Notes under the pieces: model-generated
Database searches by the model: none
What the model was told of the DNA's origin: nothing
The model's input: the letters and a program-made list of their open reading frames with translations, nothing else
Position numbers and translations under genes: made by a program
Shown here: positions 1,215-43,889 of the stretch, in pieces
Layout: each line of letters starts with the position of its first letter
Position numbering within the stretch: position 1 is the stretch's first letter
NCBI RefSeq assembly: GCF_000282595.1
Contig: NZ_AKIZ01000016.1
Location: 372,001 to 436,000, forward strand
Direction of reading: 5' to 3'
DNA length: 64,000 bases
Source of the DNA: Phyllobacterium sp. YR531
Lineage (GTDB): Bacteria > Pseudomonadota > Alphaproteobacteria > Rhizobiales > Rhizobiaceae

Positions 1215-1369
1215 TCCCGACTCCTGTTAGTTGAGCATACGAGGCCGTAAAAGATGTGCTGCTGAAGTCCTAATTCGAAGGACAATCGTTTTACTTTTGA
1301 CGTCCTTGCGCATTTTTTAGCAGGATTGGTGAGAGAATTTGTCTTATTGCCACCCCTTTTGCGGAGAGA

Positions 1370-1798
1370 ATGGCTGATAGTTCAGCCAAAAAGCCCTTTC
1401 CGGGCCGATTCAGCCCCACCAAAACCATTGGCGGAAGAAGAACCCCGCCTTTTGTAATGATACAGCCATGGTTCTGTCAGTTAGATTTCAAGAAAAACAT
1501 ATGCTGGCGACGACGTCTGGGATCCGGGTACAAAAACCGTTGCGACAGTAAATGGGAACACCCTCAGGGCACAGCGCGCGACAATCCTGGCTGGCAGTTG
1601 AGAATAGACCTTCGGTCTACAGATTTAGTTGATGAATATCACCGATTTGAACCCAAGAAAGTTGAGTATGAGCATGAACTGAACTGGTACATAATCTATA
1701 TTGAGAACGATTTCTTCACAGCGGCCGGAGGACCGGAAACCCTTTTGGAAATCATCCGCGAGTTCCTAGATTTTGCTGAGCCAGATACGAATGACTGA
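1370..1798 (+). CDS. Imm53-like immunity protein, N-terminus degenerate
   Basis: The C-terminal two thirds resemble immunity protein 53 of polymorphic toxin systems: a CDSKWEH segment, then DNPGWQLRIDL, a central W, and an AGGPETLLEIIREFL stretch near the end. Immunity proteins of this class bind and block a cognate toxin in the cytoplasm. The first about 60 residues (basic, Gly/Pro-rich) do not look like the family, and the spacing between WEH and NPGW is about three residues short, so the gene may be decayed or rearranged at its 5' end. GGAGAG precedes the ATG. The stop overlaps the start of the next gene. Confidence 0.5.
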   Translation: MADSSAKKPFPGRFSPTKTIGGRRTPPFVMIQPWFCQLDFKKNICWRRRLGSGYKNRCDSKWEHPQGTARDNPGWQLRIDLRSTDLVDEYHRFEPKKVEYEHELNWYIIYIENDFFTAAGGPETLLEIIREFLDFAEPDTND

Positions 1799-1958
1799 CG
1801 CCCGAAAGCCCGAGAGCCCATCCCAAACAGGGAAACCGCACAAAATCGTGGAGCATTGGTGCGATCATCCCGGATGTAAAAAATGGGGTAGCCATGGGTT
1901 TCATACTCGCTACGGCACCTCTTGGTATTGCTACGAGCATAAGGGTGATGGGTTCTGA
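1791..1958 (+). CDS. Small zinc-knuckle-like protein (copy 1)
   Basis: A 55-residue protein with CDHPGCKKWGSHGFH and WYCYEH: Cys, His, Cys, His, His, Cys and His in knuckle-like spacing, probably binding one zinc. ATG 1791 was chosen because it gives MTDARKPESPS, which aligns with MSDEPKPETPS of the paralogue at 13276. It overlaps the Imm53-like stop by 8 bases and so may be translationally coupled. Function unknown. Confidence 0.65.
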   Translation: MTDARKPESPSQTGKPHKIVEHWCDHPGCKKWGSHGFHTRYGTSWYCYEHKGDGF

Positions 1959-1999
1959 TTTTAGGGAACCGATTCGCAACAATAGTCGTTCACCGACTT

Positions 2000-2314
2000 A
2001 TGGAAGATTTACCGTTCAAAGAAGTTACCGTGATGACCCGCCAGTTGGGCAAGATGAAGGTCATTACCTCCGTCATGCAGGCAGCGGAGTTCATCGTGAA
2101 TGAATGGCCGGGAACGGATAGCGAAAAACTCGACGTCGCCAAGCACGCCCTCGTCAAATGCTACGATGGTGAGATGTCACCCGGCGTTGCCCGTATGGCG
2201 TTCGTAGAGGCTGCCAGGGAAGCTGATATCTACGTGGAGGCGGCTGGCCGTCCAGTAACAACCGGCAAGCTGGAGAAGTGGCGCAAGGAGAAGGTTAGCC
2301 GCAGAGTAATTTAA
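2000..2314 (+). CDS. DUF982 family protein (copy A)
   Basis: A 104-residue DUF982 protein. The family pattern is visible: FKEVTV start, VITSVMQAAEFIVNEWPG in the middle, then AKHALVKCYDG and ARMAFVEAAREADI. DUF982 proteins are small, often multicopy proteins of Rhizobiales with no established function. The C-terminal LEKWRKEK tail recurs in two broken remnants at 4479 and 15958. ATG 2000 keeps the full family N-terminus. Confidence 0.75.
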   Translation: MEDLPFKEVTVMTRQLGKMKVITSVMQAAEFIVNEWPGTDSEKLDVAKHALVKCYDGEMSPGVARMAFVEAAREADIYVEAAGRPVTTGKLEKWRKEKVSRRVI

Positions 2315-2398
2315 TGATCGAGCTCTTGACCTTGGAATATCTCCTCTCATGCTTTAGACCAGCAAATATACCCAAGCACGCATCATAGGACTATCATT

Positions 2399-3856
2399 TT
2401 GAACAATAAGGAAGACGCTCGGATCGAAAGCGAAATCCACAAGGTAGCTGCTTCCTCAGATCCCTTTGCTGCCGCTGTTAGAGCGACCCGTATGCCCATG
2501 TTGATTACGGATCCCAGTCAACATGATAATCCCATTGTTTTTGCAAACGATGCCTTCAGCCGTCTTACAGGATATTCACGTGAAGAAATCATCGGGAGAA
2601 ACTGTAGGTTTCTCCAGGGAACCGGTACGAACGACGAAGATGTAACGCGAATTCGAGATGCCGTTGCAAGGCGCGAGCCAATTGAAATTGACCTGCTCAA
2701 CTACCGCAAGGACGGAAGCTCTTTTTGGAACCGGGTGCTGATATCACCAGTATTCGACGATACCGGCGAACTCAAATATTTCTTTGCCTCTCAGTTCGAT
2801 GTTTCACCAGATAGACATCGATTGGCAGAGCTACAAAAATCCCAAGAGAGCCTCGAGATTGATATTGAAAAGCGCATGATCGATCTCTCATATTCAGAGA
2901 GCCGCCTTCGCTTCATTCTAAAGGCTGCCCAGATGGGCACATGGACGCTCGATGTTAAATCTGGAAGATTGGTTGCATCTGAACAGTGCAAGATAAATTT
3001 TGGACGTGAACCATCCGAATCTTTAACTTATGAAGATATTCAAAACGCGATTTTTCCAGAAGACTTGGACCATTGGAGGTCAGTAGTAGCCAAGGCAATT
3101 GAAACCAATGAAGATTTCCAGCTTGAGTATCGGATATCTACTCCAAAGGGCGAACGGCGCTGGATTGAAGTAAGAGGCCAGATAAACGCAGATTCATTGG
3201 ATTCCGCCATCACTATGGTCGGCATAACGCAAGATATCACGCCAAGAAAAGAGGCCGAAGAGCACCGAAAGGTGCTGACACGTGAACTGCTACACAGAGT
3301 AAAGAACTCACTTGCCACGGTACAATCAATTTTCACTCAATCGCTACGCTCCGCAGGTTCGCTCGATGAGGCAGCTAAAGCCGTGTCAGGACGCATAGGG
3401 GCTATGGCGGTAGCTCACGACATACTTGCCCGCGATGATTGGTCTCGTGCTCCCATAAAAGACATTATCGAAGAAGCTTTGAAGCCCTTCTTAGGTTTTG
3501 ATATCAGAATTGCAGGGCCAAGAATTGTTTTTGAAGAAAAAGCAGTATCTGCATTAACTCTTGGATTGTACGAACTCGCGACCAATTCCGTTAAATACGG
3601 CGCCTTGAGTAGAGAAAATGGATCGGTGACTATTAACTGGGAGATTATCCAGTTGGAGGAGCCGACGCTGAAATTTCATTGGAGTGAAATGGGCGGGCCA
3701 GAAGTGAAAGAACCAAATCGACACGGATTTGGTTCGAAAATAATCGAGCGCTTAATTCCGGCGGACCTCAATGGGACTGGAAAATTGAATTACAAACCCG
3801 GTGGCTTATTATATGAGCTTCTGGTTCCTATAAGCTCAGAACAAATTAACCGTTGA
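2399..3856 (+). CDS. Blue-light LOV histidine kinase (HWE family)
   Basis: A cytoplasmic 485-residue sensor kinase. An N-terminal LOV/PAS domain (about 22-140) carries GRNCRFLQG with photoactive Cys69, the residue that forms the flavin adduct. A second PAS domain follows (about 165-285), then an HWE-type kinase with [14 protein letters not shown] (phospho-acceptor His299), a degenerate N box around [14 protein letters not shown], and a [10 protein letters not shown] glycine box. Its architecture and length match Brucella LOV-HK, which responds to light and feeds the general stress pathway. The start is TTG at 2399; ATG alternatives lie well inside. No response regulator is adjacent. Confidence 0.92.
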
Positions 3857-3874
3857 AAATAAGTTGAAGGAATA

Positions 3875-3902
3875 GCCGCTCCATTCCGAAGGACAGAGCG
3901 GC
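3875..3902. repeat. Palindromic dispersed element, copy 1
   Basis: GCCGCTC and GAGCGGC pair over a 14-base loop that contains an inner TCC-GAA-GGA stem. The core CATTCCGAAGGACAGAGCGG recurs at 15430 and 17048. It sits between convergent genes and could serve as a bidirectional terminator, although no T-run follows. Confidence 0.55.
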
Positions 3903-3915
3903 GCTGAAGCCGAGG

Positions 3916-4377
3916 CTACATATTTGTCTCGCGGTTTTCACCCATGTCTGGACGTCCACCAGACGCAGCCGCAAATAGCATCTTAGCTGCGGCGATCACT
4001 GAGTTTGGACCATCCCAAAATTCGGCAGTATTGGGCACAACCGTAATCAATCGGATGTTCGGATCGTCCGGGCTATCCCACCATGCCTTTGCGAATGGTG
4101 AGAACAAATCCTTTATCTTCGAGCGATCGTCGGAAACGGTCGCGTCACCATCAATGAACAGATACTCATTTCCCGAATGGTTGGTGAAGGATAACTGAAC
4201 GCCTGGATCGGCTTCAATGTCGGCAACTTTCTCGCTGCCAGCGTCGGTCAGGAAGTAAATAGCCCCCTCTTCTCTACGTGGCATTGCCGACATGGGAACC
4301 TGTTTTTTCCCCGTAAGAAGGAAACAAGTTTTTACGCTCTCTGCGATATCCCAAGCTTTCTTTGGATCCGATGTCAT
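3916..4377 (-). CDS. Pyridoxamine 5'-phosphate oxidase-like (general stress) protein
   Basis: A 153-residue split-barrel flavin-binding-like protein of the general stress protein 26 type. Visible family features are MSAMPRREEGAIYFLTDAGSEK (FMN-binding strands), VQLSFTNHSGNEYLFIDG, and a C-terminal WDGPNS segment. Such proteins bind FMN or a deazaflavin; the substrate is usually unknown. AGGAGG sits 8 bases before ATG 4377. It is convergent with the LOV kinase. Ends ENRETNM. Confidence 0.8.
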   Translation of the reverse strand: MTSDPKKAWDIAESVKTCFLLTGKKQVPMSAMPRREEGAIYFLTDAGSEKVADIEADPGVQLSFTNHSGNEYLFIDGDATVSDDRSKIKDLFSPFAKAWWDSPDDPNIRLITVVPNTAEFWDGPNSVIAAAKMLFAAASGGRPDMGENRETNM

Positions 4378-4617: not shown

Positions 4618-5166
4618 ATGGTCAGGAAAATCGAGCCGAACTCAGACGCTTTGACCCAAGCCACGGTGACAATCACGTGGGTAATAATATTGAACAAACC
4701 CTTTTACCCACTTTATGTTTGGTGGCTTGTGGGCGACGGGTATTCCACAGCAATCCTTGCTTTGTTGGCCGTGCCGTTCTTTTTTGCAATCATACTAACT
4801 GCAAAAAGCAATTCTTTCGCGGCCAGACTGGCTTTGCCGGTGATTGGCACCTTCGACACGATCTTTGAAACGGCGGTGTTTGGTAAAGGCTCTGGAACGC
4901 TCTTATTTTTTGCACCTTGCATTGCTTTGGCTGCTTTATCCTTCTGCCCGCACGAAAAACGCTATCAACAGATAACCGTATGCATAATATTTTTTCTTTT
5001 TGCTGTGGTCTGGTGGCTTGGTCCCACGCCAAGTTATCCTTGGACCGCCGATCAACTTAATACTCTTCTGAACATAAACGTACTGGCAGTTGCTGGTTTG
5101 ATGGCACTGATAGGTTTGCGCTATGCGGGCATCCATCGAGATGGTCAAAACCACATCCGTGAATAG
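4618..5166 (+). CDS. Integral membrane protein, unknown function
   Basis: A 182-residue protein with about five hydrophobic segments (roughly residues 18-38, 42-62, 70-82, 95-110, 118-138 and 155-170, two of them weak). No conserved catalytic motif is visible. The start at 4618 has no strong ribosome-binding site, so a slightly different start is possible. It lies between a DUF982 remnant and a terminator-like hairpin at 5264. Family not recognised. Confidence 0.65.
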   Translation: MVRKIEPNSDALTQATVTITWVIILNKPFYPLYVWWLVGDGYSTAILALLAVPFFFAIILTAKSNSFAARLALPVIGTFDTIFETAVFGKGSGTLLFFAPCIALAALSFCPHEKRYQQITVCIIFFLFAVVWWLGPTPSYPWTADQLNTLLNINVLAVAGLMALIGLRYAGIHRDGQNHIRE

Positions 5167-5263
5167 TAGTTTTGCCATCGCGGCACACTGAGCCGTATCT
5201 TCACAAAATATGGAAGCATCACCCTCTGTTGCATCGAATGGCTCGCTGACGCGTTACCTATTG

Positions 5264-5296
5264 AGGGCCGGGCAATTGTGCCACGGCCCTTTGTTT
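5264..5296 (+). terminator. Rho-independent terminator-like hairpin
   Basis: AGGGCCG (5264-5270) pairs with CGGCCCT (5284-5290) and is followed by TTGTTTG. It lies after the membrane protein gene and before the attachment-protein gene. Confidence 0.55.
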
Positions 5297-5342
5297 GCCC
5301 ATCGGCGCTAGCTGTCCGGGCATGACGCGGAGAACATCAAGT

Positions 5343-5792
5343 ATGCAGATTTCTAAAGGTGCAACGATCGCCGTTGCTGATGGTGAAAAATTTAATCTCT
5401 TCGAGAATGTCAGTGACGATGCTGACCCGAAGTTAAAAGCTCTGCCGGATGCTGACGTTGATACTGATAGCAACAATGCCAGTGGTGGTAGAAAAAGCAG
5501 TTCTGCAAATCCCGATCAAGGGCAAGCTGACGAGGATAATTTTGTTGGCGGCATCGCAGATATCCTTAACCAACGAGTGTTGAAGGGTAAAATAACGGGC
5601 CTCGTCGTGATTGCTGCTCCCAAGGCTCTTGGAGAGCTCCGCAAGCATTATCATAAGGAACTTGAAGCGATTTTGGTTGGCGAAATTGCCAAGGACCTGA
5701 CAGGCCATTCTATCCAAGGACATAGAAAAATCTATCGCAGCCGCTTGAAGGACTGCGACAGCCCAGACGCAGCTGCACGTCAAACAAGATAA
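5343..5792 (+). CDS. Host-attachment / baeRF-type protein
   Basis: A 149-residue protein of the family described as required for attachment to host cells. It starts MQISKGATIAVADGEKFNLF, has a low-complexity Asp/Ser-rich middle (about 30-75), and a C-terminal half with LVVIAAPKALGELRKHYHKEL and VGEIAKDLTGHSI, as in baeRF (release-factor-like) domains. ATG 5343 was chosen because the upstream extension (MPIGASCPGM...) is unlike the family. A strong hairpin follows. Confidence 0.8.
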   Translation: MQISKGATIAVADGEKFNLFENVSDDADPKLKALPDADVDTDSNNASGGRKSSSANPDQGQADEDNFVGGIADILNQRVLKGKITGLVVIAAPKALGELRKHYHKELEAILVGEIAKDLTGHSIQGHRKIYRSRLKDCDSPDAAARQTR

Positions 5793-5812
5793 ATCTATCT
5801 GTGAACTGTTAT

Positions 5813-5837
5813 AACGGGGGGAGTGTCTCCCCGTTCT
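5813..5837 (+). terminator. Terminator hairpin
   Basis: AACGGGG and CCCCGTT form a GC-rich stem around GGAGTGTCT and are followed by CTTAT. It lies 20 bases after the attachment-protein stop. Confidence 0.65.
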
Positions 5838-6007
5838 TATCAGCATCGTCATAGCGTCGCCGGCGTGACTTCTATGAAATCTATACAGATAAATCCTTGT
5901 AACATTCTTAATTACTAAAAATTTCAATCGATTTTAGATATTGATCATGGTTTTTTGCGGTGTTACTTGCCGCCCGCCAAGTAAAACGCGGGAACAGAGG
6001 AACGCCA

Positions 6008-6835
6008 ATGCGCATAATGGCAGATCAAGGCATCTTCAGAAACATGAAGGCGGCCCCAGATAAAAATTTTGAACATATTCTGGACGATACAACGAAGCTT
6101 AGACAAGTTGCGACTCGTATCCACATGGATGCACAACGCACTGAGCGGACAAGCATCTTCAATGTCTTCGATTATACGGATTACTCTGTACAGTCGGGCC
6201 AGGTTACCGACCTGAAGGGAAACGATCTGCTCAAGTTTGAACTCCGCACGATGGACGATACCTTTACCGTTCGCAACGCTACGACGAATGAGACCATTAT
6301 CGAGGTGGATGAAGACGGTGACTTCACCAAAGGTAAGGCCTGGAAACAGGAATATGAAATCGCAAAAGGCGTCGGAGACCTTCACCACTATAAAGATATT
6401 GGCGACAGGGAGTTGTATATTGAAGGCGTCAGGTTCGAGCTTTCGTCCAAGGGCGGGGGAGAGGAAATCAATCGTATCAAGATTCAGGCTGTCATACCGG
6501 ATGAGACGGGAAGTTGGCGCAGCCAGCAGAGCACTGTCGATATGATCGCCAGCAATGACGCAGACTTCGCTAAACTGGGCGGACAACTCAGTCAGAAAGA
6601 CTACCGAGCCGCATATCTCCACCATGATTATGATCCGGGAGAAAAACACTGGGCAAATGACGAGTTCTCAGACGACGGCAATGTCACTTATACGAAATAT
6701 GATGAGAGCGGAACGTCATCGGATGTAAATGTAGAACAATTGCCAAATGGCCAGTTTGGTTTGCGGAGCACACGTCTCAACATACTGCGAGAGAATGACC
6801 CGGATTATTACCGCAAGGAAGTGCTGCTGGACTAG
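6008..6835 (+). CDS. Hypothetical acidic protein
   Basis: A 275-residue acidic protein with no signal peptide and no membrane segment. GAGG lies 8 bases before ATG 6008, preferred over 5960. Regularly spaced Tyr/Asp motifs (FDYTDYSVQSG, HHDYDPGEKHW, YTKYDESG) suggest a beta-rich fold. No family was recognised. A hairpin at 6861 follows, so it seems monocistronic. Confidence 0.7.
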   Translation: MRIMADQGIFRNMKAAPDKNFEHILDDTTKLRQVATRIHMDAQRTERTSIFNVFDYTDYSVQSGQVTDLKGNDLLKFELRTMDDTFTVRNATTNETIIEVDEDGDFTKGKAWKQEYEIAKGVGDLHHYKDIGDRELYIEGVRFELSSKGGGEEINRIKIQAVIPDETGSWRSQQSTVDMIASNDADFAKLGGQLSQKDYRAAYLHHDYDPGEKHWANDEFSDDGNVTYTKYDESGTSSDVNVEQLPNGQFGLRSTRLNILRENDPDYYRKEVLLD

Positions 6836-6860
6836 CGTTCCACGCTCGAATCTAACGCAA

Positions 6861-6890
6861 AGCCCCCGCATCCGGTTGGATACGAGGGCT
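6861..6890 (+). terminator. Hairpin, probable terminator
   Basis: AGCCCCCGCATCC and GGATACGAGGGCT form an imperfect 13-bp stem with a GGTT loop, 25 bases after the preceding stop. Similar CCCCGGCATCCG hairpins occur at 16012 and 19039. Confidence 0.5.
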
Positions 6891-6962
6891 GATGTAGCTA
6901 TTACGCGCTATAGACCAAAGTAAGGAAAACCAAGCTTCATAGTTTTCACGCAGGGAATTTCC

Positions 6963-6993
6963 TTGACCTTAAACCTGACTTAAAGGTTAGTAT
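6963..6993 (+). promoter_or_regulatory. MerR-type promoter/operator for the DJ-1 gene
   Basis: TTGACC (6963-6968) and TAGTAT (6988-6993) are separated by 19 bases, the long spacer typical of MerR-activated promoters. The spacer carries the dyad AACCT-N7-AGGTT. It drives the gene at 7031; the MerR gene at 7732 is the likely regulator. Confidence 0.6.
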
Positions 6994-7030
6994 CGCTCAA
7001 GATAAACGCGAAACGAATTGGCCCGAGCTC

Positions 7031-7714
7031 TTGACCAAGCGAATTCTCCACGTCGTCAGTAATGTTTCCCACTATACTGACCCACGCCAGCCGACCGGCT
7101 TATGGCTTTCGGAACTAACGCATGCCTACGACTCTTTTGCTGAACGCGGCTTCACGCAGCGCATCGTCAGCCCAAGAGGCGGACATTCTCCGCTTGAACC
7201 ACGCGCGCTCAAATGGCCGTTGCTGGACGCATCGGCTAGGGCTTGGCTGAATGATCCCGAACGTATTGCCCTCTTGTCTACCACAGCGTCACCCGATCAG
7301 ATCGATCCAGCGGAATTCGACGCGATTTACTTCACCGGCGGCCATGCGGTCATGTGGGACTTTCCTGACAGCGTTGAATTGCAGGCTATCACGCGCTCCA
7401 TATGGGAGCGCGGTGGAATTGTCTCAGCCGTATGCCATGGCTATTGTGGCCTATTAAATACCAAGCTGTCAGATGGGAACTTGCTGGTCGCCGGGAAAAG
7501 GCTGACCGGGTTTTCTTGGACAGAGGAAGTATTGGCTGGAGTAGCTAAAAAGATGCCCTACAATGCCGAGGCTGATATGAAGCGTCGTGGCGCTCGCTAC
7601 GAGAAGGCCCTGCTCCCGTTCGTCTCCTATACAGTTTCCGACGGTCGTTTGGTGACTGGCCAGAACCCGTGGTCGGCGAAGGCAACGGCGGAGATGGTAG
7701 CGGCGCTCCTATAG
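7031..7714 (+). CDS. DJ-1/PfpI family protein (type 1 glutamine amidotransferase-like)
   Basis: A 227-residue cytoplasmic protein of the Hsp31-like DJ-1/PfpI superfamily. The nucleophile elbow is GGIVSAVCHGYCGLL (Cys in AVCHG), and the family signature DAIYFTGGHAVMWDFPD precedes it. Relatives act as glyoxalase III, deglycase or chaperone-like enzymes against reactive carbonyls, but which applies here is unknown. The start is TTG at 7031 after GAGC. It has its own MerR-type promoter and ends 18 bases from the convergent MerR gene, suggesting common control. Confidence 0.85.
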   Translation: MTKRILHVVSNVSHYTDPRQPTGLWLSELTHAYDSFAERGFTQRIVSPRGGHSPLEPRALKWPLLDASARAWLNDPERIALLSTTASPDQIDPAEFDAIYFTGGHAVMWDFPDSVELQAITRSIWERGGIVSAVCHGYCGLLNTKLSDGNLLVAGKRLTGFSWTEEVLAGVAKKMPYNAEADMKRRGARYEKALLPFVSYTVSDGRLVTGQNPWSAKATAEMVAALL

Positions 7715-7731
7715 TGGACTGGTTATTGAGC

Positions 7732-8226
7732 CTAATTTGCCGCCGACTTGCGCCTGTTTGCTCGTACCCGGCCAGCCTTTCCCAAAAGTTTGACGTCACC
7801 AGCGTCCATGTCCGGGAGGTCGGCGTTATCCAGCATTCGCGATAACACCCGACGTGCATTTTCCGCGCAGTCGATGTCGCCCGGCTTCGCCTCGATATCC
7901 TTTATCAGCGCGACAAGTTGCTTCCTGCTTTGTGCGAGCCGCGCCTCAAGCGCCGTGATGTCCGCCACCTTGCGCTGCAGCGTCTCAAGCAAGGTGTCAT
8001 GTTGCCAGTTTTCGAGATCAGTCGGCACGAGCACTCGAATTTCATCGAGACTAAATCCAGCCTTCTGTGCAGTGGCGATCAGTTCAATTAATACGAGCGC
8101 TTCAGGCGGATAGGTCCGATAGCCGTTCGGCCGCCGTTCTACCATCTTCAGTAGGCCAATGCTCTCGTAAAAGCGAATACGTGATGGGGTTAGATTGCTG
8201 CGCTTCGCGAGTTCACCGATGTTCAT
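7732..8226 (-). CDS. MerR family transcriptional regulator
   Basis: A 164-residue regulator. The N-terminal winged helix reads MNIGELAKRSNLTPSRIRFYESIGLL, then a PNGYRTYPPEAL wing and a long dimerisation helix (about 85-125). A single Cys in the DIDCAENARRVL segment may be a sensing or structural residue. ATG 8226 gives the canonical MerR start; the longer open frame upstream overlaps the promoter and is discounted. MerR-type promoters face away on both sides (6963 and 8253), so it probably controls the DJ-1 gene and the operon from 8474. Confidence 0.9.
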   Translation of the reverse strand: MNIGELAKRSNLTPSRIRFYESIGLLKMVERRPNGYRTYPPEALVLIELIATAQKAGFSLDEIRVLVPTDLENWQHDTLLETLQRKVADITALEARLAQSRKQLVALIKDIEAKPGDIDCAENARRVLSRMLDNADLPDMDAGDVKLLGKAGRVRANRRKSAAN

Positions 8227-8252
8227 GTTCGAAATCCGTAGAAAAATATCTC

Positions 8253-8283
8253 TTGACCCTAAAGTTAACTTGAATGTTAAGGA
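8253..8283 (+). promoter_or_regulatory. MerR-type promoter for the 8474-12934 operon
   Basis: TTGACC (8253-8258) and TAAGGA (8278-8283) have a 19-base spacer containing AAAGTTAACTT. The same -35 element and spacer length occur at 6963. It lies in the gap between the divergent merR gene and the decarboxylase-like gene. Confidence 0.6.
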
Positions 8284-8473
8284 CATGTCCAACATTAAAT
8301 TTGGAGACGTAAAATGCTCACACCCGACGCAAGACAGTTCCGGATATTCCCGCTCGATGCGCGCCTTTTCGCCCAGCGGTATCGCCACTGGCGGAAAGCG
8401 AATCCGCAATCTTTGAGCAAAACAGTAATCCCGAAAATCCGGTCGTGTCATGGAGAGAAGAAAGGGCATTGAA

Positions 8474-9538
8474 ATGCAAACTCTGAAATCTGGATCACGG
8501 AAGATCATTACAGCTTTGGTCGGAACATTCGCTCTTGGAGCTGCGGTGCTTTACGCGCCAAATCTTTTTGCAGGCAAGGCGGTCATCACGGAAGCGTCAA
8601 GTAACAACGTTATGAAAACTCCGGTCCAAGCCGAGCTCGACGCCGATCAAAAGATAATCGATTTGGGCGGTCATACGGTCCCCGTCCTGAAGAACGGTCT
8701 ATACGACAGGTTTCTTTCCAATCCGCCACTTTCCGTGATCGCGGAAAAGAGGCCGGATCTGGATCTGAACTGGTTCAAAACGCTTAAGAAGCAGAAGAAA
8801 GAAGTTGGGTTCACCACTTACTCACCGAATTTCTACTATAGCAACAGCAGCATTACAGCGATCTACACGGCCGATATGGACAGGATCGAAGAGTTAATGC
8901 CGGAGCAGGTGAGAAGCCGGGTTCAGCCCATCTCCTTCGTGCCGGGCAGAGGTTTGATTGCAATCACCTCATATGCCTACAAATATTGCGATAACGACTC
9001 GTACAATGAACTGTCGATTTCCATCGTAACAACGAGGCCCAACAAGAGTAATTTCGGGTTGATATCGCTGGTTGGTGAGATCATCCATAAAGATCTCTGG
9101 GGCTATGTTCTCAAGCTTCCGGTCAACACCGAGTTGGCCCGCGTGAGAGGTGTAGTCGGTTACAATCTGCCAAAGTGGCTAATACCGATTGAATACAATA
9201 GCGACGGTAACGACGTAAAATTCACTTACTATGACGAACAAGGGAAACCGGATTTCTCTATGGTTGGAAAGAAGCTCAAGATCGCGGCGAAGGAGCCCGA
9301 AATCACGCGTGTCAATTTCACCAATCTGGACGCGAAAGGCCAACTGACGCACGGATATTCGGATGTCAGGGCAATTCAACAGGCTTCCAGTCGAAACGGT
9401 GAGGACGTTCAGATGAACCTGTCTGACGGTCCATTATCGACATTTATTAAGTCGCTCGGGCTGAAGAAGCTGGTTCGCTATGATTATCAACCCGAATTCC
9501 AGGCCGCACTATACACGCCGGAGTTGGCGAAAGACTAA
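8474..9538 (+). CDS. Acetoacetate decarboxylase-like protein with N-terminal signal/anchor
   Basis: A 354-residue protein whose body resembles the acetoacetate decarboxylase (ADC) family: VRGVVGYNLPKWL holds the family region, with beta-rich flanks. The first about 35 residues (RKIITALVGTFALGAAVLYAPNLFA) form a signal peptide or membrane anchor, which is unusual for soluble ADC. ATG 8474 has AAGGG upstream; the extension to 8450 is less likely. It is the first gene of the MerR-controlled operon. The substrate is unknown. Confidence 0.75.
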   Translation: MQTLKSGSRKIITALVGTFALGAAVLYAPNLFAGKAVITEASSNNVMKTPVQAELDADQKIIDLGGHTVPVLKNGLYDRFLSNPPLSVIAEKRPDLDLNWFKTLKKQKKEVGFTTYSPNFYYSNSSITAIYTADMDRIEELMPEQVRSRVQPISFVPGRGLIAITSYAYKYCDNDSYNELSISIVTTRPNKSNFGLISLVGEIIHKDLWGYVLKLPVNTELARVRGVVGYNLPKWLIPIEYNSDGNDVKFTYYDEQGKPDFSMVGKKLKIAAKEPEITRVNFTNLDAKGQLTHGYSDVRAIQQASSRNGEDVQMNLSDGPLSTFIKSLGLKKLVRYDYQPEFQAALYTPELAKD

Positions 9539-37394: not shown

Positions 37395-38333
37395 TCAAAT
37401 CCCGTCAAGGTAGCGCACGGCACCCGGGCGGCGTATTTCGACACTGCCCAATCGGAAAATGCCGGGAACCTCGAACTTCAAGAGACGCTGCTCAGCCTGA
37501 AGCCAGCGTAGGGGCATGGGAATGTGGATTTTCACGACATCCGGCGAACGTCGATAAGCCGCCAGTCGGTGCGTGCCCCCAGCACCCGCATTTTCAAGTC
37601 CAAACACGGCTCGGATTGTGAGAGGAAGTCCCGTGCGCTGCGTATAGATATTAGCGCGCTGGATATGCTCCAGCACGGTAGTCGTCATAGTTGCATCCAG
37701 ACGCTTGGTGGCAATTAGAGCGAACCGATCCTGATCCAGAAGGAGCGTATTTGCCTGTTCGATACCGTTGGAGGCAGTGAAGATGACGCTCAGAACGTCG
37801 TTGACGTCCTTCAGGATTTCGTCGGCGGTTTTCGTTGGCCACGTTGCAGTTCCAGAAACCCCGTTTGCGGCAGTCAGTGCTGTGACGTTAGTCGCGTTCA
37901 GCAAACCTGTCATTCCGAGTTTAGGCCGGCCGAGGAAGGCGACATTGTCTACAAACAGCTCGTACTTTCGACGGGCAGCATCGGCACGATCACTTTCCAA
38001 GCGCACGCCATAAGCCTGTGCATGCGCCAGCTCCTGAAGATTGTATCGATAACCGATACCAGCCATGAAAACACGGCTGTTGCCGCTGTCGAGTTTGAAA
38101 TCGACAAACGGAATGTCATCGCCATCCGCTGCAACTTCTCGGGCCTGACCAACGTCATCGCCCATCGAGAAGAAGTCGATGGCCGTTGTCCAGTCAGGTG
38201 CCGAGTTATCGACGGGCACGAGTTCCCGGTACTGGAAGTCCGGATACTCTCGGGCGTAGATGCCCGGCTCAATGTAATTCTGGGCCGTGCGCAGGAAGTT
38301 CAGCGCCAGTGCGGGCGCGTCATTGGTGAACAT
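37395..38333 (-). CDS. Major capsid protein (DUF2184 family)
   Basis: A 312-residue HK97-fold type capsid of the DUF2184 class: YIEPGIYAREYPDFQYRELVPV, VDFKLDSGNSRVFMAGIGYRY, ELAHAQAYGVRLESDRADAAR, and a C-terminal MPLRWLQAEQRLLKFEVPG. AAGGAG precedes ATG 38333. No cleavable delta domain is seen; scaffolding is supplied by the DUF2213 protein. Confidence 0.88.
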   Translation of the reverse strand: MFTNDAPALALNFLRTAQNYIEPGIYAREYPDFQYRELVPVDNSAPDWTTAIDFFSMGDDVGQAREVAADGDDIPFVDFKLDSGNSRVFMAGIGYRYNLQELAHAQAYGVRLESDRADAARRKYELFVDNVAFLGRPKLGMTGLLNATNVTALTAANGVSGTATWPTKTADEILKDVNDVLSVIFTASNGIEQANTLLLDQDRFALIATKRLDATMTTTVLEHIQRANIYTQRTGLPLTIRAVFGLENAGAGGTHRLAAYRRSPDVVKIHIPMPLRWLQAEQRLLKFEVPGIFRLGSVEIRRPGAVRYLDGI

Positions 38334-38344
38334 GCTCGTTCTCC

Positions 38345-38809
38345 TTACTTGGTGACGCCAAGGCGGAGACGTGCAAGCTGGTTGGTACCAGACGTGACGC
38401 TTGCCCATTCGGCATTTTCGATGAGTTGGTTTGCGGCAGAGTTCGCAACGTTGGTGAAACCGCCGGTAGGGGTCATGTAGACAGGATCACCCTGAGCAAC
38501 GGCGACAAGCGCAGTAACGCAGATGGAGCCATTCTTCATGACGCTGATTTGATCGTAAGGCTTGTAAACCTCGCCATTGGCAAAGGGCAGCGTACGATCA
38601 ACAACAGCAACACCGGCAAACTTGCCTATTGCTGTTGGCAGCTTCACGGTATCCTCGACGGTATCGAACAGAACGCCGCTACCGAAAGGAATGTTGCCGG
38701 AAGTCGCATTGACGATCATCGAAATGATGTGATGCGGTTCCGTGGTCGCGATCATGCCGGGATAACCCGCCGGAGTATCACGCGAATAGGATACGGGTGG
38801 GAAAGCCAT
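38345..38809 (-). CDS. Capsid cement / decoration protein (gp24-like)
   Basis: A 154-residue protein beginning MAFPPVSYSRDTPAGYPGM with TPTGGFTNVANSAANQLIEN and LARLRLGV, typical of structural cement proteins adjacent to DUF2184 capsids. ATG 38809 overlaps the preceding stop (TAATG). Confidence 0.82.
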   Translation of the reverse strand: MAFPPVSYSRDTPAGYPGMIATTEPHHIISMIVNATSGNIPFGSGVLFDTVEDTVKLPTAIGKFAGVAVVDRTLPFANGEVYKPYDQISVMKNGSICVTALVAVAQGDPVYMTPTGGFTNVANSAANQLIENAEWASVTSGTNQLARLRLGVTK

Positions 38810-39969
38810 TATGCGGACTCCTTCTTGCCCTGCCATGCGGCTGCATCGCGAGCGAGCATTGCCGTGTAGGCGTCATTGGAATTCTGCGCGCTATCGTTGT
38901 TCTGGATGCCGTTCTGCACAACGGTGCGGAATGGGTCGGCGACCTTCTTTGCGTCTTCTGCAAGGATGTCGAAGCGAGCATCGATATAGGCCTCAGCCTT
39001 GTCCTTCACTGCTTCATCGCCAAGCTTGGCGACAACGGCAGCCTTGCGGATAGCGGCATCTGTCAGGCCTTCCGTCTTCACATCCTTGGCGATTGTTTTC
39101 GCCACAGTGATCAGATCGGCGCGTGCCTGGACGCGCTTGTCGAGATCGGCATCGGAAAGCACCTTGGCTTTCGTCGCATCGATTTCAGCGTCTTTCTTCG
39201 CGATTTCGGTATCCTTGGCAGCGAGGGCGGCATCTTTCACGTCAAGAGCCGTTTGATGAACCTTCTCTGCATCCGCAAGCTTGGTATTGGCGTCAGCAAG
39301 CCGCGTCTGCAGCGTGCCGATCACCGTGGCACCCTGATCGGTTACTTCAACCGGGATGCCATCGACGGTAACCGTCTTCAAGGTCATGATCTTTTCCTTC
39401 TCTGGTGTTTGATCATTGGTGATCGGGGCAGCGCCCCATACGCTCGCATCACCGATGCGAACCTGTTTTCCGGCCCTTCCCTGCTGCACGATGGCAACGT
39501 GGTTGAGCCGAATATTCTTCTGGATGGCGTCATACTCATCACCGGTTGGCGTCTTGCCGGCAGTCCAGTCGAGATCGCAGGTGTAACCCGCGCTCAACTC
39601 CTGCTTGCCGCCTTCGATGGCGAGGATGGTTTTCTCATCGCTGACCATGAGAGGAACGCGAATGAATATGCCTTCGCCTGAGACTTCATCGCCTGTCTGG
39701 CCGACAGCTACGTCCTTCCAGTTCTTGGATGTCACCTGTTCGTCAGGATGGTCATTGGTAACAGGTCGATGTGCTGCGCTTTTGAGCGTGGCGTCGCTAA
39801 ACACCTCGGAACCCGGCCGATAGACCCGAACCTCGGCCATGTCTGGCTTGCCGACTTCCCAGCCCAGATAGTTCTGAATACCGGTACGGGCGATACGAGC
39901 GTCGGCAACAAGGTAGCCGTCATCACGCCGGCGCGTTCCCGCGACGGTTACAGCGTCTGTGAATTGCAT
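38809..39969 (-). CDS. DUF2213 protein (prohead protease/scaffold-like)
   Basis: A 386-residue protein. N-terminal DUF2213 domain (about 1-180: YLVADARIARTGIQNYLGWE, HRPVTNDHPDEQVT, ELSAGYTCDLDWT with an SAGY active-site-like Ser, NHVAIVQQGRAG) and a long coiled C-terminal half (about 215-330) that looks like a fused scaffold. This is the arrangement of protease-scaffold proteins. GGAGGAAGTC precedes ATG 39969. Confidence 0.85.
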   Translation of the reverse strand: MQFTDAVTVAGTRRRDDGYLVADARIARTGIQNYLGWEVGKPDMAEVRVYRPGSEVFSDATLKSAAHRPVTNDHPDEQVTSKNWKDVAVGQTGDEVSGEGIFIRVPLMVSDEKTILAIEGGKQELSAGYTCDLDWTAGKTPTGDEYDAIQKNIRLNHVAIVQQGRAGKQVRIGDASVWGAAPITNDQTPEKEKIMTLKTVTVDGIPVEVTDQGATVIGTLQTRLADANTKLADAEKVHQTALDVKDAALAAKDTEIAKKDAEIDATKAKVLSDADLDKRVQARADLITVAKTIAKDVKTEGLTDAAIRKAAVVAKLGDEAVKDKAEAYIDARFDILAEDAKKVADPFRTVVQNGIQNNDSAQNSNDAYTAMLARDAAAWQGKKESA

Positions 39970-40043
39970 GACTTCCTCCGGCAACCCTCGACACGAAGGG
40001 TCAAGATGTGCGAAGCAAACTCCTCAACAGGGAGGAGTAAGCG

Positions 40044-40226
40044 ATGATCTATCAGGTGCAGGTTTTAAAATCGGGAACAGTGTTTTTTTCTCACGAGCTC
40101 TTACTGCAAGTCGGTTATTCGTTTTCCGACCAGTTTAGTTCGGCAATGGATACGTTTCGAATGAACTATCCCGATGTCAACTTGATGGACGAAGACGTCG
40201 AAGTGAAACTAGGCAGAGCCAGCTAG
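40044..40226 (+). CDS. Small accessory protein
   Basis: A 60-residue protein (MIYQVQVLKSGTVFFSHELL start) with an excellent ribosome-binding site (GGGAGGAG). Rightward, between portal and DUF2213, overlapping the portal stop by 4 bases. Beta strands then a short acidic end (DVNLMDEDVEVKLG). Function unknown. Confidence 0.65.
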   Translation: MIYQVQVLKSGTVFFSHELLLQVGYSFSDQFSSAMDTFRMNYPDVNLMDEDVEVKLGRAS

Positions 40227-42058
40227 TCTTCATTGACTTCTTCGAACATCTCCGGTCCGAGCACGATCTCACCTTGATATGGCTCGACATTCGTTAAATC
40301 CGGCGCGTCAGGATCATATGAAATGGTGATGTGTGGGTTATACTCGGGATGATCCCAGGTAGCGCCCTTCTCGACCATCTCTTCATGACGCCAACGCAGC
40401 ATGTTCGAGTTGAACAAAAGCACGCGAGCCTCGCCGAACTTCTCCATCAACCGAGCGCCACCGCGTGGAATCTTGACTTCGTCTTCCCAAGTTGAGCCCA
40501 TTTCCATCCAGTCAACCGGCTGGCGGCTGAAAGTGATGGTAACGTGCAAGTCGTCGGCAGGGAGCGTGGTCTTGAAACCCTGCTTCTTTGCCCATGCGAT
40601 AATCTGCTTGGCATTCAGGACATCACGACGAACATAAAGCGTGCGTGGTGCAGCATCGTTGGCGGTCTGTGGCTTCTCTTCCACCTTCTCAGGTGTTGTT
40701 GAAGCCTCGATGTCCTCGTCCTTGTCTTCCTGCTCTGAAAGCCTGCCGTATTCTTCCATCGCGGCTTCGAGACCGGGCAGAGAGCCGTCTTCGATGAAAG
40801 TGTTCACGAGTGCATCAGAAAGAGCATCGATCGGCAGCAAGGCTGGCGAGGTGTTCGTACCAGCAAGAGCGCGTCCAGCATCGGCTTTCGTCTTGAATAC
40901 GTCGGCCTTTTCCTTTTCGGACATGCCCCAGAGCGGAGCCCATGTGAAATGCACATCCTTATCGCGTGCGCCGGTAGCGCTTCGTATCAGGCATTCGTCC
41001 ATGACGGACATCGCAGGGGTCATCTCGACTTCCTGCATGGCCTGAAGGCGGTCGTAGTAGTTGCGCAGATCGCTTTCGCCGGTCGCGTTCATGCCCGCAG
41101 GTGACTGCCCCAGAAGCCTCGTAGCAGGAATATCCGATGCACCGGACACGATCTGAAGGAATGACATCAGAACTTCAGGTAACTGCGCGAAGCTGGCCGT
41201 CTTTTGTTCAAATTCTTCGTCTTTATCGAGCAGTAGATCGCCGTTGATGCCCTTTGAAGTGGCGGCAAGCGTATAACGTTCCAGAAGCTTCTCACGGTAG
41301 ACGGGATCACCAAGGCTCTGCATGAATTCCGGAATCCGGATTACATTGACCTTTGCCTCGAATACCAAGCTGGCGATATTCGCTGCGGTACCGTCGGCTT
41401 GTTTGATCGCATCCATTACCGATACAAGAACACTGTCGCCCCAGCCCTGATACGCGCCAATCGATAGATCATCGTCCGGCTGCTCATTGCCACTGAACAT
41501 GACAAGGCGTGAGGGATGGATATCGACCTGGCCGCGAAGCGTTGACGTCAAACGGAATGCTTGTGGCTTTCCATACCACTCTGACGCTGGATCGCGCTCG
41601 ATCTCTCCGGCCGTCAGTTGCCGACGGGTGAGCACTGTCAGGTACTTCAGACCGCCTTTGCCTACCTTCTCGACTTTGAGCGGCTTTGCAAGGTCAGCTT
41701 CACCTGTACCGATCATAAGAGCAGCGCCACCCCAGAGCCGCGCACGAATGCGGGCCTGAAGTAGCTTGCCCTTCACATTAAGACGCTTTTCTTCGGCCTC
41801 GATCAGTTCGATCTGGCCGCCCTTGGCCTGCCAGTCTCGCCATGCCCGCACACTATCAAAGGCTGGAATATCGATGATCTTGCGAGGAAGCCAAGCACCT
41901 CGATAGGCGTTCAGTATTTCCTCATCTGAAAGCAAAGGCTGGGCATAGAATGTAGAAGCTGCCTTGTCCCGCTTGGTGTTGATGTTTGCAACAAAGCTGG
42001 TCAGGCTATCGCCTATCGTGGCAAGTCCATCGCGGGCAAAGGTGACAATATTTCCCAT
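40223..42058 (-). CDS. Portal protein fused to Acb1-like anti-CBASS domain
   Basis: A 611-residue protein. Residues about 1-430 are a DUF1073 portal (LSDEEILNAYRGAWLPRKII; SRLVMFSGNEQPDD; ATRLLGQSPAGMNATGESDLRNYYD), the ring through which DNA is packaged. After an acidic, Pro-rich linker (about 435-470), residues 473-611 carry two H-x-T-I motifs, HVTIT at 505 and HITIS at 576, as in 2H phosphodiesterases. Acb1 of T4 uses such motifs to degrade the cyclic nucleotides of CBASS defence. Portal-Acb1 fusions are, to my knowledge, known in phages; activity here is unproven. Confidence 0.87.
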   Translation of the reverse strand: MGNIVTFARDGLATIGDSLTSFVANINTKRDKAASTFYAQPLLSDEEILNAYRGAWLPRKIIDIPAFDSVRAWRDWQAKGGQIELIEAEEKRLNVKGKLLQARIRARLWGGAALMIGTGEADLAKPLKVEKVGKGGLKYLTVLTRRQLTAGEIERDPASEWYGKPQAFRLTSTLRGQVDIHPSRLVMFSGNEQPDDDLSIGAYQGWGDSVLVSVMDAIKQADGTAANIASLVFEAKVNVIRIPEFMQSLGDPVYREKLLERYTLAATSKGINGDLLLDKDEEFEQKTASFAQLPEVLMSFLQIVSGASDIPATRLLGQSPAGMNATGESDLRNYYDRLQAMQEVEMTPAMSVMDECLIRSATGARDKDVHFTWAPLWGMSEKEKADVFKTKADAGRALAGTNTSPALLPIDALSDALVNTFIEDGSLPGLEAAMEEYGRLSEQEDKDEDIEASTTPEKVEEKPQTANDAAPRTLYVRRDVLNAKQIIAWAKKQGFKTTLPADDLHVTITFSRQPVDWMEMGSTWEDEVKIPRGGARLMEKFGEARVLLFNSNMLRWRHEEMVEKGATWDHPEYNPHITISYDPDAPDLTNVEPYQGEIVLGPEMFEEVNED

Positions 42059-42066
42059 GTCCGCTC

Positions 42067-43470
42067 CTAAATGTTGTCGAGGGTGAAAGTCGATGTAATG
42101 TTGACATTGTCCGCAGCGATCAGCGCGTCAGCCAAGTTGTGAGATTTGACGCCCAAGTCCTTCTTGAGCTTGAGCTTTGGAACGACGCGTTTCTTTCCAT
42201 CGCTTTCGACCCACCAAGGCACACAAAGCTCGGTAAACAGCGCATCCAGCTTTTCCGCGCCCATCGCTGAAGCAAATGACAGGACATCCTCGGGCCTAAT
42301 CGACTGGCCACGCGTAACAGCATTGAATGTGAGCATGGCGCGGCGAGCCGTATTGGCCCAAGCCTGCGCTTTCAGGTTTAAATACTCGTCTTTGTTGAGC
42401 GGGCTGTTGCTGTTCAGCCGATCACTTGGCTTGTCAGGATCCATCACCGCATTGCCAGCATGGAAGGCGTAGTGCCTTACCTTTGCCCCGTTAGCCTTGT
42501 TCTGCTCATCGATGTAACCGCCAATGAAGGCACCCACGCCAATCGTATCGTAGGAAACAAGAGCCCCGCTGTTTTTTGCCTTTGCCCAGACTAGCTTGGC
42601 GTTCTGAACCAGCTCATCTTTGCCCGACGCCCAATCATTCGCGTCTGTAAAGACGCCTGCAATCTTGTCGGCAGTTGCGCAATTATCCTCGCCATCATCG
42701 GCAGGATCGAAGCCTATGACGTTCCGGCCGGTAAGATTGATGTCCAGCACGAGGTGAGCATCAACACAGGCATTGAGCCAACGGCGTTTGAATATAGAGA
42801 GCTCACTATCACCAAGAGGAACGCCACCATAGATGTGTTCGAACGTCTCAGGATCTTGCTCCCTCATTACCGCGATGTCGCGCAATGCCTTTTGTGACAG
42901 GAATGGGTTTTCGGTGTAATTGATGCGCCTGACGACACAGTGTGGCGGCACGTTGACTACGAAGTTCTTCCAAACGTAATCGGTGACCAACTTCGGATTG
43001 AACAGCAGGATTGCGAGACTGTCTTCCTTGCGGATTGTCGGCGCTATAACTTCCCATTGATCTTTAGTAAGCTTTTCTGCCTCTTCCACCCAGAGGATGT
43101 CGATGTCAGACGTTCCCTTGATCTCATCAAGGTTGCGCTCGATACCGTAGAATATGAATTCCGAGCCAGTCGCCTTGTGGATGATGGTCGTCTTCTGAAC
43201 ATCGAAGGCTTCGGACAGTCCAAGATGACTGATTGCCCATTTCAGTTCTGTGTATACGGATTCCTGAATTCGGTTCTGAAACCGCCTGATGCACAAGACA
43301 CGCATCTTGACGTGAACATGGTCGACCAGTCTGACTAACTGGCAAGCTGTGTCTCTTGTCTTTGAGCTTGACCGGCCACCGTGCAAAACGGCGATATCAG
43401 CCTGCCCTAGGAATACCTGCTCCCAGAAATCAAACAGCGCAGGATTTGTAAGGGAAACATGCGCATTCAC
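42067..43470 (-). CDS. Terminase large subunit
   Basis: A 467-residue PBSX-type terminase. ATPase motifs: LHGGRSSSKT (Walker A-like, about 36) and IDILWVEEAEKL (Walker B). The nuclease domain begins VIGFDPADDGEDNC. It drives and cuts DNA during packaging. Starts MNAHVSLTNPALFDFWEQV and overlaps the small subunit by 4 bases. Confidence 0.93.
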   Translation of the reverse strand: MNAHVSLTNPALFDFWEQVFLGQADIAVLHGGRSSSKTRDTACQLVRLVDHVHVKMRVLCIRRFQNRIQESVYTELKWAISHLGLSEAFDVQKTTIIHKATGSEFIFYGIERNLDEIKGTSDIDILWVEEAEKLTKDQWEVIAPTIRKEDSLAILLFNPKLVTDYVWKNFVVNVPPHCVVRRINYTENPFLSQKALRDIAVMREQDPETFEHIYGGVPLGDSELSIFKRRWLNACVDAHLVLDINLTGRNVIGFDPADDGEDNCATADKIAGVFTDANDWASGKDELVQNAKLVWAKAKNSGALVSYDTIGVGAFIGGYIDEQNKANGAKVRHYAFHAGNAVMDPDKPSDRLNSNSPLNKDEYLNLKAQAWANTARRAMLTFNAVTRGQSIRPEDVLSFASAMGAEKLDALFTELCVPWWVESDGKKRVVPKLKLKKDLGVKSHNLADALIAADNVNITSTFTLDNI

Positions 43471-43889
43471 TCTGCAACCTTTTGGCGGAGAACATCACGC
43501 CATGAGCGTGTCTCGGTCTGGATAGGTCCGCCATTCTTGCCGGTGTGTTCGTTCTTCTCAATCAGGAGGCCATGCAGCTTTGCCTTGCCCATTACGGCAG
43601 CAACAGCGGCGCTTGCGCCCTTCTCATCGGCCATAGCCAAGCGACGGGCTTCTTCGAGTTCATTTGTCAGGCTTTCCACTGTCACCATTGTGAGCAGTTT
43701 TGCCTCGTCCTGCAGTTCTTTTACCCTTGCGGAAACCTTGGGGTTGGCGAGCAGTCGTGAGGATTCCTGCCATATGGTTTCTGGCTTTGTCTTTAGCTTA
43801 ACGACATAAGCCGTTCTGTATGCCTCGGACGCATTGCCCGTCTCGACATATGCTCGGGCAAACGCCTCTTGCTTTGCTGTTAGACTCAC
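43467..43889 (-). CDS. Terminase small subunit
   Basis: A 140-residue protein starting MSLTAKQEAFARAYVETGNAS with the EAYRTAYVV helix and RLLANPKVSARVKEL, the Terminase_2 signature. It recognises the packaging site. First gene of the late leftward operon; only 40 bases separate it from the divergent lipoprotein gene. Confidence 0.9.
   Translation of the reverse strand: MSLTAKQEAFARAYVETGNASEAYRTAYVVKLKTKPETIWQESSRLLANPKVSARVKELQDEAKLLTMVTVESLTNELEEARRLAMADEKGASAAVAAVMGKAKLHGLLIEKNEHTGKNGGPIQTETRSWRDVLRQKVAE

Follow-up and report, generated by a model that had tools for sequence, protein, structure and literature searches.

Counter-defence enzymes of phages are usually seen as free accessory proteins, but the locus described here raises the question of why one of them should be built into a virion protein that is essential and in other respects conserved. 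The locus belongs to a prophage of Phyllobacterium sp. YR531 and lies in a stretch of 64,000 nucleotides (RefSeq assembly GCF_000282595.1, contig NZ_AKIZ01000016.1, positions 372,001 to 436,000 of the forward strand), which we call the window and whose numbering is used throughout. The gene at 40223-42058 encodes a phage portal protein that ends in a domain related to Acb1, the T4 protein that acts against the cyclic-oligonucleotide-based antiphage signaling system (CBASS). We show by computation that this domain is a cassette that phages have acquired, lost and swapped, with a history separate from that of the portal, and we think it probable that the cassette serves to destroy CBASS messengers late in infection.

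A portal protein with a C-terminal Acb1 domain

The fusion gene and its parts are as follows.

40223..42058, minus strand: portal-Acb1 fusion gene, 611 amino acids, start ATG, stop TAG at 40223-40225 (open-reading-frame list and Pfam)
40877..41920, minus strand: portal core PF06381 (Phage_portal_3), residues 47-394 (Pfam E 2.3e-109)
40658..40729, minus strand: disordered acidic linker, residues 444-467 (AlphaFold2 predicted local distance difference test, pLDDT, below 50)
40646..40657, minus strand: D-A-A-P where linker and domain meet, residues 468-471 (conserved in non-redundant PF06381 fusions)
40226..40645, minus strand: Acb1 (2H phosphodiesterase) domain PF23474, residues 472-611 (Pfam E 3.1e-43; match to 7t27)
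40538..40546, minus strand: first H-x-T motif, H505-V-T507, equivalent to T4 Acb1 H44 and T46 (alignment)
40325..40333, minus strand: second H-x-T motif, H576-I-T578, equivalent to T4 Acb1 H113 and T115 (alignment)

Both halves of the protein are already covered by Pfam and PHROG profiles. The PF06381 profile scores 365.8 bits (cut-off 33.8) and PF23474 scores 147.4 bits (cut-off 27); the NCBIfam match spans residues 17-396 only (HI1409 family). The PHROG profile named portal, phrog_146, aligns to residues 11-608 and already includes the extra domain without remarking on it. Among proteins of solved structure, phmmer aligned the portal of cyanophage Pam3 across residues 16-610 (E 5.8e-162) and matched the C-terminus to FBB1 Acb1 (E 7.7e-9). 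The Pam3 portal (8hds) shares the full-length architecture and is 46% identical in the portal part (Foldseek alignment). The portals of phages E217 and Pa193 (gp19) share the portal fold and have a long C-terminal part reported to lack density or a model; unlike the window protein, they show no reported match to the Acb1 part, the phmmer alignment ending at window residue 394. The plus-strand frame opposite the gene contains many stops.

A preliminary description of this DNA had proposed a portal with a C-terminal Acb1-like domain, and the two Pfam matches, together with the fold match to 7t27, bear this out. Its limits for the gene (40223-42058) and for the domain (residues 473-611) hold, and the strand, which it did not name, is the minus strand. 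The motifs that it cited, HVTIT at 505 and HITIS at 576, are present behind an acidic linker whose pLDDT lies below 50 at residues 444-467. That the partner is a virion protein is likewise upheld by the portal profile and the fold match, and fused portals also occur in isolated phages.

A structure predicted with AlphaFold2 from a 57-sequence alignment has a pLDDT of 89-97 (by blocks of ten) over the Acb1 domain, which superimposes on the crystal structure of Acb1 (7t27) with a Z score of 16.4 and a root-mean-square deviation of 1.9 Å over 130 aligned residues. The portal part matches the Pam3 portal with a Z score of 30.6 across model residues 26-444; the fold matches derived from the Protein Data Bank (PDB) span mainly residues 27-444 and are silent as to other folds for the domain. 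In its 2H fold, its HxT/HxT tetrad and the positions of Y12, E138 and E141, the domain resembles the Acb1 proteins of T4 and FBB1 (PMC9117128; PDB 7t26, 7t27), and it is 29% identical to FBB1 Acb1 across 130 residues. Unlike the window's domain, which is fused to a head protein, these are free proteins (152 amino acids in T4) of T4-like phages.

The residues of T4 Acb1 reported to contact the ligand or to take part in catalysis are Y12, H44, T46, W74, F107, H113, T115, E141 and W147 (PMC9117128). By alignment, window residues Y475, H505, T507, H576, T578 and E606 occupy the positions of Y12, H44, T46, H113, T115 and E141. A nine-sequence alignment that includes T4 and RB49 Acb1 has 12 invariant columns of 142, and five of the nine functional residues fall among them (hypergeometric probability 1.9e-4).

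For a broader comparison, 222 Acb1 loci were collected by four scans with patterns taken from the Acb1 domain, stretches of both catalytic motifs included, and at most the best 80 were retained per scan; conservation and the counts of fused forms consequently lean toward the window's kind. Contigs recur between the scans, so that the 222 loci hold 178 distinct proteins. In 57 aligned fusions, Y475, H505, T507, Y573, H576 and E603 are invariant, and the T578 position is threonine in 55 and serine in two. Among 125 non-redundant fusions, motif parsing succeeded for 112 (one motif was unreadable in the other 13), and the catalytic residues are kept in all 112, the last of them being serine in 16. 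The median ratio of nonsynonymous to synonymous substitution rates is 0.18 for the domain (non-independent pairs, the set stopping at 401) and 0.27 for the portal (187 pairs), and purifying selection is evident. A chance occurrence of H-x-T motifs was considered and is ruled out by the PF23474 match, the invariant functional residues and the fold match to 7t27. Judging from the conserved residues, the domain family is very probably enzymatic.

An active 2H phosphodiesterase might nonetheless be directed at another signal, such as the cyclic trinucleotides of other defences or a 2',3'-cyclic RNA end. 2H enzymes are diverse, and the PHROG entry matched by the domain (phrog_755) is named RNA ligase; but T4 Acb1 (gene 57B) is itself annotated as an RNA ligase, and the best match outside portals in both fold and sequence is Acb1, whose Y12 and E141 positions the window retains. 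We regard a different substrate as decidedly unlikely.

Gain, loss and exchange of the domain

Viral contigs supplied the 80 closest portals for comparison. Seventeen end in Acb1, and 59 end at 448-471 residues; other single cases carry an ADP-ribosyltransferase (L077, PF03496), run into an Abi_alpha match (L074) or are frame-broken (L067). Two losses have left traces. In L017, the domain is gone but a 23-residue relic, 74% identical, persists downstream of the portal; in L020, read by eye, the middle of the domain is missing between a retained linker and the domain's final residues, an in-frame loss. In a quickly built tree of 68 portals (44 with Acb1, 23 with no such domain and one with an ADP-ribosyltransferase), about half of whose Acb1 rows came from the domain-based scans, the presence of Acb1 changes ten times, and at least six of these changes are forced by well-supported branches. 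Two portals on this tree, L011 with the domain and L025 without it, are separated by just 0.016 changes per column. The alignment designated A1 left out Pam3.

The two halves of the fusions also differ in their histories. When the 125 non-redundant fusions, drawn from 210 rows, are compared in pairs, identity in the portal and identity in the domain correlate weakly (Spearman 0.29). The window protein and L098 are 41% identical in the portal and 90% identical in the domain, whereas L103 and L222 are 96% identical in the portal and 55% identical in the domain. In an approximately unbiased test with 60 sequences, 18 of them selected for their discordance and the other 42 drawn randomly, each half rejects the topology of the other (p 7e-4 and 3e-43). 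A 67-row tree of the domain shows five changes of partner (PF06381, PF04860, protease, toxin or none), the minimum possible being four. A conserved structural extension of the portal was also considered and is ruled out, because close portals lack the domain and because it has been exchanged between portals.

Distribution of the fusion

Head proteins of at least three kinds carry Acb1. The 222 loci comprise 206 fusions to PF06381 portals, eight to portals of the HK97 type (PF04860), three in which Acb1 sits N-terminally on a DUF2213 head maturation protease, and five others; counted as distinct proteins, these become 167, six, two and three. The second portal family is represented by L226/L249, L239, L250, L251, L252/L253 and L255, and the protease by L235 and L323/L327; Pfam confirms the partner in L226 and L252 (PF04860) and in L235 (protease). 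Free copies of Acb1 also exist.

In samples of genomes drawn from the order and from the family, Acb1 scores above its cut-off in 4 of 297 and 13 of 247, respectively. Fourteen of the 16 distinct genomes concerned have it in frames of portal length, which we counted as fused, the portal itself having been checked in G000 (the window genome), G206, G242, G737, G767 and G848 only. Portals were found in 7 of 337 class-wide and 6 of 297 order-wide genomes, too few for a control. The named hosts of the fusion include Rhizobium, Shinella, Mesorhizobium, Aureimonas, Roseovarius, Sphingomonas, Caulobacter, Pseudomonas, Xanthomonas and Stenotrophomonas, and among cultured phages it is present in Rhizobium phage RHph_TM3_3_3, Aminobacter phage Erebus and cyanophage Pam3.

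Other arrangements were seen in passing. Triple fusions of portal, Acb1 and ADP-ribosyltransferase occur in L138 (163-2745) and L174 (2561-5500), and the Acb1-less portal-ADP-ribosyltransferase of L077 lies at 6001-8070. In L163 (3857-5214; the same protein in L212), Acb1 is fused to a Gp49-like domain inside the head gene cluster, adjoined by an antidote gene of the dnstrm_HI1420 family. A distant PF06381 portal in L180 (frame 1129-4224) bears a C-terminal extension of several hundred residues. Intein-like insertions, recognized by eye only, lie beside Acb1 genes in a minor head protein (L163 1726-3768) and in a terminase (L330 4947-6632).

The slot between portal and protease

The remaining genes of the head module are listed here.

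43467..43889, minus strand: terminase small subunit (phrog_51 E 1.3e-20)
42067..43470, minus strand: terminase large subunit (PF04466 E 1.2e-37)
40044..40226, plus strand: small open reading frame of 60 amino acids in the portal-protease gap (open reading frame only)
38809..39984, minus strand: DUF2213 head maturation protease (PF09979 E 1.9e-53; phrog_530 E 5.4e-112)
38345..38836, minus strand: virion structural protein (phrog_563 E 4e-30)
37395..38408, minus strand: major head protein (phrog_264 E 5.3e-90)

In the prophage, the module runs from the small and large terminase subunits through portal, protease, structural protein and major head protein to an adaptor, and the order expected of PF06381 portals (small terminase, large terminase, portal, protease, major head protein) is the order found in the window. 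Judged from the N-termini of its relatives, the major head protein probably starts downstream of the first ATG.

The 60-residue frame on the opposite strand has no Pfam or PHROG match, and it sits in a slot that other genes occupy in relatives. In unfused relatives in which both ends were found, the portal-protease gap measures about 240-1310 bases, and many of its reading frames lie on the opposite strand. Between the portal stop and the protease start of L018-L076, some of these frames match families of abortive infection or of candidate defence: putAbiC (L043), Abi_alpha (L074) and DUF2971 (L040) by Pfam, and RTasSLATT (L018), PDC-S31 (L040) and PD-T7-4 (L017) by PADLOC, which found matches in three of ten scanned.

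Such contents suggest that the fusion could be a by-product: a counter-defence gene inserted in this slot would have been read into its in-frame neighbour, and its late expression would matter rather than its place in the head. The variety of the slot's reading frames is consistent with this account, as are the fusions to both the upstream portal and the downstream protease and the existence of free copies. On the other hand, with 14 of the 16 Acb1 genomes showing portal-length frames, the fused state appears to be kept rather than broken up, and a second portal family has gained the identical arrangement. We consider a by-product possible, though on the doubtful side.

The linker junction and the location of the domain

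At the junction of linker and domain, the motif D-A-x-P is nearly constant: D and P are present in all 125 non-redundant PF06381 fusions and A in 122. Its codons vary synonymously, and the conservation is thus at the level of protein and not of codons. Pam3 has D-A-T-P ahead of its Acb1 domain, the Erebus portal lacks the motif, and it is absent from the six PF04860, two protease and two other Acb1 proteins compared. When the major head protein, the structural protein and the protease of the window were examined for it, the major head protein showed no clear site of this kind and no clear propeptide. The motif might serve for processing or might cap the domain structurally.

As to the location of the domain, the C-terminal barrel of the homologous E217 portal is reported to project into the head, with residues 97-528 of 765 built (PMC10329688), and residues 529-765 of the Pa193 portal are reported to be without density (PMC11042391). 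The Pam3 entry holds a sequence of 621 residues, of which 442 are modelled; the last aligned is 432 and Acb1 begins at 469, so the domain seems to be absent from the model. The direction of the E217 barrel and the extent of the Pam3 model lead us to suppose that the domain is probably inside the capsid, either as a flexible appendage in 12 copies or removed. It would reach the cytosol of a new host only if cut loose.

Such a release has a precedent of sorts in T4, whose IPI (anti-restriction) and Alt (ADP-ribosyltransferase) resemble the Acb1 domain in that they are linked to the prohead and belong to the proteins that counter defence or modify the host. The T4 acb1 gene (57B) adjoins ipI. Unlike the domain, IPI and Alt are separate proteins with propeptides, present in 360 and 40 copies and reported to be ejected (PMC9026906). 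One may thus picture a packaged effector that is cut from the portal in the prohead, perhaps at D-A-x-P by the neighbouring protease, is ejected with the DNA and acts at infection. The inward E217 barrel, the unmodelled end of the Pam3 portal and the constancy of D-A-x-P in the 125 fusions, coupled with its absence from the ten proteins of other types, are consistent with this picture; further, the head protease itself can bear Acb1, and the portal-ADP-ribosyltransferase fusions, with or without an intervening Acb1, recall packaged and ejected Alt. Yet a virion would hold just 12 copies, the major head protein shows no evident matching site or propeptide, and the Erebus portal does without the motif. 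A flexible tether also fits the missing density, and the role of D-A-x-P may be that of an N-cap. We judge a packaged effector to be unlikely. More speculatively, the portal C-terminus (in some phages the protease N-terminus) might be a docking platform on which interchangeable enzymes of host takeover or counter-defence are concentrated in the prohead, to be cut at D-A-x-P and ejected. If so, the virion would carry its own CBASS-signal nuclease into the cell, and the platform would mount Acb1, an ADP-ribosyltransferase, or both in tandem; we hold this to be quite unlikely.

Probable action late in infection

Action during assembly fits better than action at the moment of infection, the possibility raised in the preliminary description, since it needs no release of the domain. 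By our own estimate, 100 virions with 12 copies each would amount to more than 1000 molecules late in infection, against the 12 brought by one virion, and this disparity also favours late action. Further, head proteins are among the reported triggers of defence: the prohead protease of Bas13 interacts with a CBASS sensor, according to a review (PMC12409349), and portals are reported to trigger the SpbK and Avs defences (PMC11984713, PMC11249213). An Acb1 made in step with the head proteins would be well timed to erase the signal that these provoke.

We thus propose the following course of events. The portal, dodecameric in solved relatives, would bear Acb1 on a flexible linker, and the fusion would be made late with the other head proteins, existing both as free subunits and on assembling proheads. 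Like T4 Acb1, the domain would hydrolyse 3',5'-linked cyclic di- and trinucleotides, and CBASS messengers would be destroyed while head proteins, some of them reported defence triggers, build up. Portals in finished virions would hold the domain inside the head, with delivery to the next cell following only upon its release. That the window encodes a portal with an exchangeable Acb1 cassette of this function, acting late, is the reading that we favour with reasonable confidence.

Several observations weigh against it. The phage of the window is known only as a prophage. Of the base-contacting positions, Y12 (Y475) and E141 (E606) are kept in the window, but W74 is replaced by F541 and F107 by H570, and the E141 position is glutamate in just 32 of the 57 aligned fusions. 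The lid tryptophan, W147, is absent: the protein ends in VNED, and its TAG stop (40223-40225) falls exactly at the position of the lid tryptophan of close relatives. This tryptophan is kept in 85 of the 125 fusions by a rough motif count, in which a few of the 40 without it are parser slips. Another group of fusions stops at the same position, mostly via TGA. Readthrough of the stop at the lid was considered and is unsupported, the sequence beyond it being unconserved when read by eye. The lid is characteristic of the solved Acb1 proteins and does not define the family. As the window protein stops where relatives carry the lid tryptophan, its own allele is less surely enzymatic than the family.

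Taken to its extreme, the missing lid (in the window and in up to 40 of the 125 fusions) would suggest a structural or nucleic-acid-binding appendage without catalysis, and the portal does contact packaged DNA. The catalytic residues are nevertheless conserved, the domain has been swapped between portals, and the portal can do without it, as L025 does at its small distance from L011. A non-catalytic appendage is accordingly very improbable.

CBASS in the host

A second kind of evidence concerns CBASS itself. On another contig of the window genome (L092, G000:C18:55000-69000), positions 4947-8761 of the minus strand encode TRIP13, two HORMA proteins, a CD-NTase and NucC, which constitute a type III CBASS; a Tle1-like hydrolase and the candidate defence protein PDC-S71 follow. 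The messenger of type III CBASS is cAAA. This molecule is reported to be a substrate of T4 Acb1 (PMC9117128). The wider association also counts against the proposed function: in the unbiased family sample of 247 genomes, SMODS, a profile that covers only part of the CD-NTases, is found in 3 of 13 genomes with Acb1 and in 28 of 234 others (Fisher p 0.21), and when the window genome is set aside, in 2 of 12 (p 0.65). The order sample has it in one of four Acb1 genomes, namely the window's own. Given the lack of significant association in the unbiased sample, the CBASS of the window host may be coincidence.

Among 50 genomes with pattern-found Acb1, SMODS scores above its cut-off in 14, a higher frequency than the 28 of 297 of the order (p 7e-4) or the 31 of 247 of the family (p 0.009). 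These 50, however, were chosen for carrying the domain, differ in taxonomic make-up and are partly shared with the family sample; they were drawn from 60 loci, the remainder being repeats or loci left out. With this sample biased and the unbiased one at p 0.21, co-occurrence with CBASS was set aside as proof of function.

A prophage of Mesorhizobium sp. YIM 152430 (L333 8231-9852; L224 1-1463) carries a SMODS CD-NTase on the opposite strand directly upstream of the terminase, about 1.6 kb before the portal-Acb1 gene of the same prophage. Beside it lies a protein that matches SLATT_4 weakly, with a score under the family cut-off. This arrangement would fit protection from the prophage's own CBASS.

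Conclusions

Acb1 and its mechanism are already known, and some portal entries in public databases are named Acb1-like. A 2022 study reported T4 Acb1 with 271 relatives, 112 of them from prophages (PMC9117128). Some of these may well be portal fusions; that study's main text mentions neither portals nor a fused Acb1. Our literature search found no paper describing the fusion, its exchange, or the versions on the second portal and the protease. What is new here is the behaviour of the portal's Acb1 end as an exchangeable cassette.

A removable Acb1 cassette on head proteins ties immune evasion to the assembly of the head, a stage that several bacterial defences sense. Highly similar portals that differ in having or lacking the domain occur in nature and offer a simple test of its role.
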